Below the pieces are notes generated by a model. It had not been told where the DNA came from. It did not search any database and saw nothing but the letters and a program-made list of their open reading frames with translations. Made by a program: the position numbers and the translations under genes. From contig RECH01000330.1 of NCBI GenBank assembly GCA_007694125.1, positions 1 through 36,347 of the forward strand: 36,347 nucleotides of DNA, in the 5' to 3' direction. This document shows, in pieces, positions 2,658 through 3,830 of this stretch. Position 1 is the stretch's first letter, and every line of letters begins with the position of its first letter. This DNA is from Leptolyngbya sp. DLM2.Bin15 (GTDB lineage Bacteria; Cyanobacteriota; Cyanobacteriia; RECH01).

Positions 2658-3113
2658 ATGATGAAAGCTAAAGACATAATGACCCAAGCGGTTGCAACGA
2701 TCAGTGGCTCAGCTACCGTAGCCGAGGCCGTTGCCAGCCTAAAAGAAAACCAGGTTCGAACCTTGGTGGTTGAGCGCCGCCATCCGGATGATCCCTACGG
2801 CATCCTGTCTGAAACCGACATCATTTATAAAGTAGCTGCCTACGGCAAAGATCCCAAGCAGGTGCGGGTGTACGAAATTATGACTAAACCCTGTGTTGTG
2901 GTGAACCCTGACCTAGGGGTGGAATATGTGGCTCGTCTGTTTGCCCAGACCGGCGTGCATCAAGCTCCGGTGGTGAGTGGTGACCTGCTGGGCACCATTT
3001 CGATTCACGATATTTTGACCAAAAGCGATTTTGTGGAAAAACCCAAAACCTATTTTGAACTGTACTGCGAAGAGTTTCCAGACGCCCCGGAAGCTCGGAT
3101 GTACGACGCCTAG
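2658..3113 (+). CDS. CBS-pair protein with a CP12 C-terminal-half-like tail
   Basis: Two CBS motifs (about residues 8-57 and 72-122) form a Bateman module, which in this superfamily commonly binds adenine nucleotides. After them the protein ends in a tail of about 22 residues, YFELYCEEFPDAPEARMYDA. This matches the C-terminal end of CP12 (consensus like YC-x-x-NPEA-x-ECR-x-YDD), the part that engages GAPDH. The first cysteine of the CP12 pair is kept (C137) and the second is Ala (A146). The AWD-VEEL core and N-terminal cysteine pair are absent. The start at 2658 is chosen because GGAGG at 2647-2651 is correctly spaced and the paralogue begins at the same point; an upstream in-frame TTG at 2580 is less likely. 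The next gene is a tandem paralogue carrying the other CP12 half. The CBS call is secure; the CP12 reading rests on motif match. Confidence 0.9.
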   Translation: MMKAKDIMTQAVATISGSATVAEAVASLKENQVRTLVVERRHPDDPYGILSETDIIYKVAAYGKDPKQVRVYEIMTKPCVVVNPDLGVEYVARLFAQTGVHQAPVVSGDLLGTISIHDILTKSDFVEKPKTYFELYCEEFPDAPEARMYDA

Positions 3114-3220
3114 AGGGCGGGTGCTCGGGGGCTCAATGGCGATCGCCCCCTTGATCGTGCTTCCGTTTACCAAAGGGCAGAACGGAGACTACGGTAGTCT
3201 TGGGTCTAAAATCAGGATGA

Positions 3221-3250
3221 AACGGTAAGTAGATCTTCCTACTTGCCGTT
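3221..3250 (+). terminator. 12-bp hairpin between the two CBS genes
   Basis: AACGGTAAGTAG (3221-3232) and CTACTTGCCGTT (3239-3250) form a 12-bp stem with one G-U pair and a 6-nt loop. No U-run follows, and the stem ends 28 nt before the start codon of the second CBS gene. It may be an attenuator, a partial terminator or an RNA-stability element separating expression of the two paralogues. The structure is certain; the role is inferred. Confidence 0.55.
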
Positions 3251-3278
3251 AACCCATGCAGTTATCTGGAGAACGGGG

Positions 3279-3830
3279 ATGCTAAAAGCACAAGACATCA
3301 TGACCACTGACGTGGTGACCATTAGTGGCTCAGCGACGGTAGCCGAGGCTGTGGCTCTGATGACCGAGAAGGGATTGCGATCGCTGATTGTCGATCGCCG
3401 CTACAGCGAAGATCCCTACGGTATCGTCACGGAAACCGACATTGTCTACAAAGTGGTTGCCTATGGTCACGATCCAAAAACCATGCGGGTTTATGAAATC
3501 ATGACTAAGCCCTGCATTGTGGTGCCGCCAGAGTTGGGGGTGGAATATGTAGCTCGGCTATTTGCCAACACGGGCATTCGTCGCGCCCCGGTGATCAAAG
3601 GGGAGTTGCTCGGGGTTGTCTCGGTGAGCGATATCTTGGCCAAGGGGAATTTTGTCAACCAACCCCAGCGTCCTTATATTGAAGACGAAATTGACGCAGC
3701 TCGGGACGAAGCGCGGCGCATCTGTGCAGAGCAGGGAGCCACCTCCCAAGCCTGTGCTGCTGCTTGGGATATTGTAGAAGAGCTGCAGGCGACGGCGTCC
3801 CATAACCGGGCTGACCGGGCGCTGTCGTAA
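3279..3830 (+). CDS. CBS-pair protein with a CP12 N-terminal-half-like tail
   Basis: 183-aa tandem paralogue of the preceding gene. The two share GSATVAEAV, DPYGI-x-x-ETDI-x-YKV, RVYEIMTKPC and LGVEYVARLF. The CBS motifs lie at about 8-57 and 72-122. The C-terminal extension (about 133-183) matches the N-terminal half of CP12: a cysteine pair at C149 and C159 in ARRICAEQGATSQAC, directly followed by AAAWDIVEELQA, the AWD-VEEL signature that contacts phosphoribulokinase. The C-terminal CP12 cysteine pair is absent; a similar tail sits on the upstream gene. CBS-CP12 fusions are known in cyanobacteria and are thought to couple adenylate state to Calvin-cycle control. The start ATG at 3279 has GGAG at 3268-3271; an upstream in-frame TTG (3243) lies inside the hairpin and is unlikely. 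Confidence 0.92.
   Translation: MLKAQDIMTTDVVTISGSATVAEAVALMTEKGLRSLIVDRRYSEDPYGIVTETDIVYKVVAYGHDPKTMRVYEIMTKPCIVVPPELGVEYVARLFANTGIRRAPVIKGELLGVVSVSDILAKGNFVNQPQRPYIEDEIDAARDEARRICAEQGATSQACAAAWDIVEELQATASHNRADRALS

Follow-up and report, generated by a model that had tools for sequence, protein, structure and literature searches.

Two adjacent genes of a Leptolyngbya sp. carry complementary parts of CP12 on separate CBS proteins, an arrangement that is kept in a sister species and recurs in other cyanobacteria. CP12 switches the Calvin cycle off in the dark. It is a small protein, disordered over much of its length, and its two ends presumably bind different enzymes; the AWD_VEEL hairpin is the PRK-facing part in CP12 complexes. 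The two genes lie on one strand of the window (the whole stretch of DNA analysed, 36,347 nucleotides), with 165 bp between them, and their features are as follows.

2658..3113, + strand: C-half gene (gene 1, 151 aa), a CBS pair (Bateman module) with the CP12 C-terminal tail only
2658..3035, + strand: CBS pair of the C-half, residues 1-126 (PF00571; Foldseek of the predicted model)
3045..3110, + strand: CP12 C-terminal tail KTYFELYCEEFPDAPEARMYDA (PF02672 match), with C137 as its one Cys and A146 at the second Cys position
3223..3248, + strand: intergenic hairpin with a 10-bp stem, CGGTAAGTAG-ATCTTC-CTACTTGCCG, with the same sequence in the sister species G002
3279..3830, + strand: N-half gene (gene 2, 183 aa), a CBS pair with the CP12 N-terminal hairpin only
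3279..3656, + strand: CBS pair of the N-half, residues 1-126 (PF00571)
3675..3827, + strand: CP12 N-terminal part with Cys149, Cys159 and AWDIVEEL, ending after ATASHNRADRALS (PF02672 and model)

The gene 1 start is the ATG at 2658 or at 2661. Hmmscan located two CBS stretches (PF00571) in each gene, and the match to the CP12 profile PF02672 (cut-off 22.7 bits) covers positions 47-70 alone in gene 1 (31.4 bits, E 3.3e-7) and positions 1-45 alone in gene 2 (55.7 bits, E 8.4e-15). The sequence-only reading, which had assigned the C-terminal CP12 end to the first protein and the N-terminal Cys pair with the AWD-VEEL core to the second, is thus borne out by significant profile matches to both tails, and its coordinates (2658-3830) and residue numbers (C149, C159, A146) are correct. 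A genome-wide search of the host assembly (G000) returned the same complementary pair, with CP12 positions 47-70 and 1-49. Neither window protein has a complete CP12 (profile 1-70) on a single chain; both are CBS fusions with partial CP12 coverage, not small stand-alone CP12 proteins. The AWD_VEEL core is absent from the gene 1 protein, and its CxxxPxxxxC pair is incomplete, C137 being kept and the second Cys replaced by A146, as had been proposed; in gene 2 the AWD is at residue 162, and C149 and C159 form the N-terminal Cys pair.

The predicted model of the C-half displays a confident CBS pair and a tail of two short helices with lower confidence, and its best Foldseek match is the Microcystis CBS-CP12 5NMU. 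In the N-half a helical hairpin is predicted at residues 134-152 and 157-182 (pLDDT about 90 over 141-170). The hairpin folds on its own in this model, a single-sequence AlphaFold prediction with a pLDDT of 51 overall, of which the hairpin alone is usable, the CBS part being unreliable.

An artefact or frameshift of one intact CBS-CP12 is ruled out by the full CBS pairs in both genes and by the repetition of the arrangement in G002. No remnant of a C-tail could be read downstream of the N-half stop, the match up to position 52 in G002 being a read-through of the stop. The 26-nt spacer hairpin (3223-3248), which is without a T run, is unchanged in G002 although the flanking spacer has diverged; Rfam gave no match at the locus, this hairpin included. 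The neighbours of the pair in the window are a Ser/Thr kinase-TPR gene, RdgB/Ham1 and a PRC-barrel gene, and trxA is not adjacent. On other contigs, the host genome also encodes a canonical 77-aa CP12 (C27) and, next to trxA, an intact CBS-CP12 (C74).

Conservation within the genus confirms that the division is a maintained feature. In the congener G002 both genes recur in unchanged order, again next to the RdgB/Ham1 gene, and a genome search found no other CBS-CP12 in it; the split pair there is hence without an intact back-up copy. A third congener (G003) has the C-half, running up to the contig end. A comparison of G000 with G002 gives 7 synonymous codon differences and no nonsynonymous one for the 25-residue gene 1 tail, and 4 and 0, respectively, for the CP12 part of gene 2; the C-half tail of two Acaryochloris likewise differs by 12 silent and 0 replacement codons. 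Both tails are therefore shown to be under purifying selection, and the silent-only changes in the gene 1 tail indicate a selected protein feature rather than read-through noise.

When a 44-aa junction peptide was used as a query against 390 Cyanobacteriia genomes, a C-half CBS protein was recovered in 27, several with a degenerate tail (L124, L128, L130, L133) and one cut by a contig end; the tail occurs in at least seven of the sampled families. A scan of the genomes of 84,980 species, a set whose C-halves overlap in part with those of the first, gave about 42 named loci with a contiguous C-half junction, among them Sphaerospermopsis, Anabaenopsis, Dolichospermum, Nostoc, Calothrix, Mastigocoleus, Pleurocapsa, Xenococcus, Acaryochloris, Snowella and Moorena. 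The junction, FVE[KNR]PK[ST]xFExYCEE, is nearly uniform across the loci, and the second C-terminal Cys is missing from all 53 distinct C-half tails (53/53). In a Leptolyngbya-type group (L124, L128, L130, L131, L133, L142) the tail is devoid of Cys and takes a YMDxPEVLQxREYDV-like form, conserved within the group.

The partner of the C-half was surveyed at 43 named loci (the 42 and Leptolyngbya sp. Heron Island J). A truncated N-half adjoins the C-half in 15 of them, one with a decayed C-tail being counted, and an intact CBS-CP12 in 19, i.e. 19 of the 34 having a partner; no partner was present in the fetched stretch at the other 9, some of which are ended by contig ends, and the Acaryochloris C-halves are without an adjacent partner. 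The claim that the CP12 halves reside on separate adjacent CBS genes thus holds, the split being real, conserved and recurrent, but the notion of one divided protein applies in part only: an intact partner at about half of the partnered loci indicates that the C-half is not always part of a divided protein, and together with the partnerless Acaryochloris copies suggests that it can work without a split partner. In the other genomes no case was found in which the first gene's tail was unrelated, or absent beside an intact CBS-CP12. All adjacent pairs examined lie on one strand, in either gene order, and the N-halves stop 11-21 residues past VEEL and keep both N-terminal Cys in 32/32 cases. L027 (G182) has a fragment of a third CBS reading frame (857-1114) between its N-half and C-half genes.

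To lessen selection bias, CBS-CP12-N genes were also taken from the 390-genome search, with about 5.5 kb around 140 places. The C-tail is absent from 16/19 such genes beside a C-half, as compared to 7/81 without one on a strict reading (13 by a looser automatic rule). This association of truncation with the C-half is significant by Fisher tests that leave relatedness in (p 1e-10 by row; 3e-6 by genus, on approximate counts). A tree-aware test, with 3 usable pairs, was underpowered. N-truncated CBS-CP12 without a C-half was seen in L140, L141, L145, L151, L147, L176, L196 and L199. The first four of these, all of genus g84, have an N-half with no detectable C-half, while their genus mates G288 and G364 keep the pair; a recent loss of the C-half in them is possible.

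In a tree of the CBS regions only, pair members often cluster by lineage and not by half. Several cases of this grouping are explained by the mosaic DNA identity of the CBS regions, which falls from 100% to 73% pairwise in Snowella, rises from 75% to 98% in Nostocales, and runs 68-97-70% in Pleurocapsales. The CBS platform thus looks to have been gene-converted in several lineages while the tails stayed distinct, a pattern that fits selection for compatible CBS interfaces, although heteromers are not proved by it. No such conversion tract was detected between the CBS regions of the window pair (69% nt identity overall).

At 38/43 C-half loci of the named set trxA lies nearby, with a ferredoxin gene at 22 and an adenylate kinase at 13. 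At about 20 loci a small Cys-containing gene without a Pfam match separates trxA from the CBS genes. Two divergently oriented neighbours recur upstream of the CBS genes in the trxA/CBS-CP12 cluster (L043-L084): the product of one is short and matches a Recombinase domain, and that of the other consists of CBS domains alone. In the window's family, a CBS-CP12 variant that terminates in DAWCSG (L009:1081-1728, G001) directly follows HoxU-/HoxY-like bidirectional hydrogenase genes; the -WCSG end is also present on divergent CBS-CP12 at L207, L214, L216, L219, L220, L221, L239, L247, L257, L260 and L262, as well as on a short CBS protein that lacks CP12 (L235).

The window C-half does not cluster with the other C-halves in the tree, and the window pair, which lies outside the TrxA cluster, may have arisen separately. 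An AU test did not reject the window genes joining the TrxA-cluster clade (p 0.82), the free search having missed a better tree. A recent duplication in the window lineage is unlikely, as the CBS domains of the two genes are merely 68% identical. It is conceivable, if doubtful, that CP12 was split over two CBS-scaffolded proteins on more than one occasion: ancestrally in the TrxA cluster, where CBS gene conversion would have kept the two compatible while the partner was repeatedly trimmed, and a second time, at an unrelated locus, in the window genus. The AMP-responsive heteromer would then bear a PRK arm under redox control on one subunit and a GAPDH-type arm without such control on the other.

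The closest solved relative of both window proteins is the hexameric Microcystis aeruginosa CBS-CP12 (5NMU). That family (PDB 5NMU/5NPL/5NVD) has the same CBS pair, with 276 bits for the N-half and 199 bits for the C-half, and shares the CP12 sequence blocks, but in the window CP12 is divided over two adjacent proteins. Together the halves span nearly the whole CP12 profile, whereas canonical CP12, which the host has too, is one chain of about 77 aa with two Cys pairs. Most other C-halves lie among genes for ferredoxin, adenylate kinase, TrxA and CBS-CP12, unlike the window pair. The CP12-C-like tails of GapB, Chlamydomonas ADK3 and argininosuccinate lyase also carry the C-terminal CP12 block alone, on an unrelated domain (PMC9406205); these read CxxxPxxxxC, in contrast to the CxxxPxxxxA of the C-half, which is borne by a CBS regulator that has an N-half protein as its partner. 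CBS-fused CP12 has been classed by Stanley 2013 into CP12-N/C-CBS, CP12-N-CBS and CP12-0-CBS, the C-terminal CxxxPxxxxC pair being limited to the N/C-CBS class, and a C-only CBS class appears to be missing from the three CBS classes as named in PMC3906501. Neither a CBS protein with the C-tail alone nor its pairing in tandem is described in the literature examined, and an earlier notice in Stanley 2013 or Hackenberg 2018 is possible.

The reading preferred here is that the two genes constitute a divided CBS-CP12, descended from a family member once present as two tandem copies, one of which would have lost the CP12 N-terminal hairpin to become the C-half and the other the C-terminal tail to become the N-half. 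Their products may co-assemble via the shared CBS fold into an adenine-nucleotide-responsive mixed oligomer, like the Microcystis CBS-CP12 hexamer, in which the N-half would give a redox-switchable AWD-VEEL hairpin on the putative PRK side and the C-half a CP12 C-tail on the putative GAPDH-type side, its disulfide no longer closable. Such an oligomer, with presumed hetero-assembly, nucleotide gating and PRK/GAPDH binding, is given a little less than an even chance. The CxxxPxxxxC end is the element that binds GAPDH, and GapB and ADK3 carry it as well (PMC9406205); the loss of the second Cys in the C-half argues against redox-controlled GAPDH binding. The Microcystis CBS-CP12 bound AMP and inhibited PRK activation and formed no GAPDH-PRK complex (PMC9406205, PMC9514657), and the C-terminal Cys pair of canonical Synechocystis CP12 is needed in vivo. 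As the tested CBS-CP12 forms no GAPDH-CP12-PRK complex and canonical CP12 depends on its C-terminal Cys pair, the rebuilding of one CP12 function by the two proteins, as suggested by the sequence-only reading, is not the default expectation.

That the C-half occurs beside an intact partner no less often than beside a truncated one would also suit a capping subunit, which joins CBS dimers of an N-half or of an intact CBS-CP12 but is unable to form the hexamer-building CP12 contacts, thereby tuning size and PRK inhibition, with C-tail loss by the partner as a side event. The CP12 domain is reportedly required for hexamerisation of the Microcystis CBS-CP12; absence of the hairpin is the invariant feature of the C-half, and the shared CBS platform is kept alike by gene conversion, both in line with capping. 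The strong purifying selection on the C-half tail, however, implies a role beyond lacking the hairpin, and the Acaryochloris C-half has no adjacent partner to cap; this explanation is held to be possible but unlikely. The partnerless Acaryochloris copy would be accommodated, as would the only 68% identical CBS domains of the window and the existence of CP12-C-like tails alone on other proteins (PMC9406205), if the two are ordinary diverged paralogues forming no joint complex, with the N-half acting on PRK and the C-half tail docking on another target, in the manner of the tails on GapB, ADK3 and argininosuccinate lyase. Yet the same-strand tandem persists across families, and the partner C-tail has repeatedly been lost next to the C-half, which makes such independence improbable.

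Neutral decay, which would make the tails leftovers of a CBS-CP12 rendered redundant by duplication, might be read from the degenerate tails of L124, L128, L130 and L133 and from the canonical CP12 and intact TrxA-linked CBS-CP12 retained by G000. It is strongly disfavoured by the near-zero nonsynonymous against many synonymous tail changes, by the conservation of the C-half across at least seven sampled families and by the pair of G002, beside which no other CBS-CP12 was found. The mixed CBS oligomer accordingly remains the preferred reading. A natural split that places the ends of CP12 on separate tandem nucleotide-sensing subunits offers a ready test of each end, and suggests that adenylate (energy) control partly replaces redox control.
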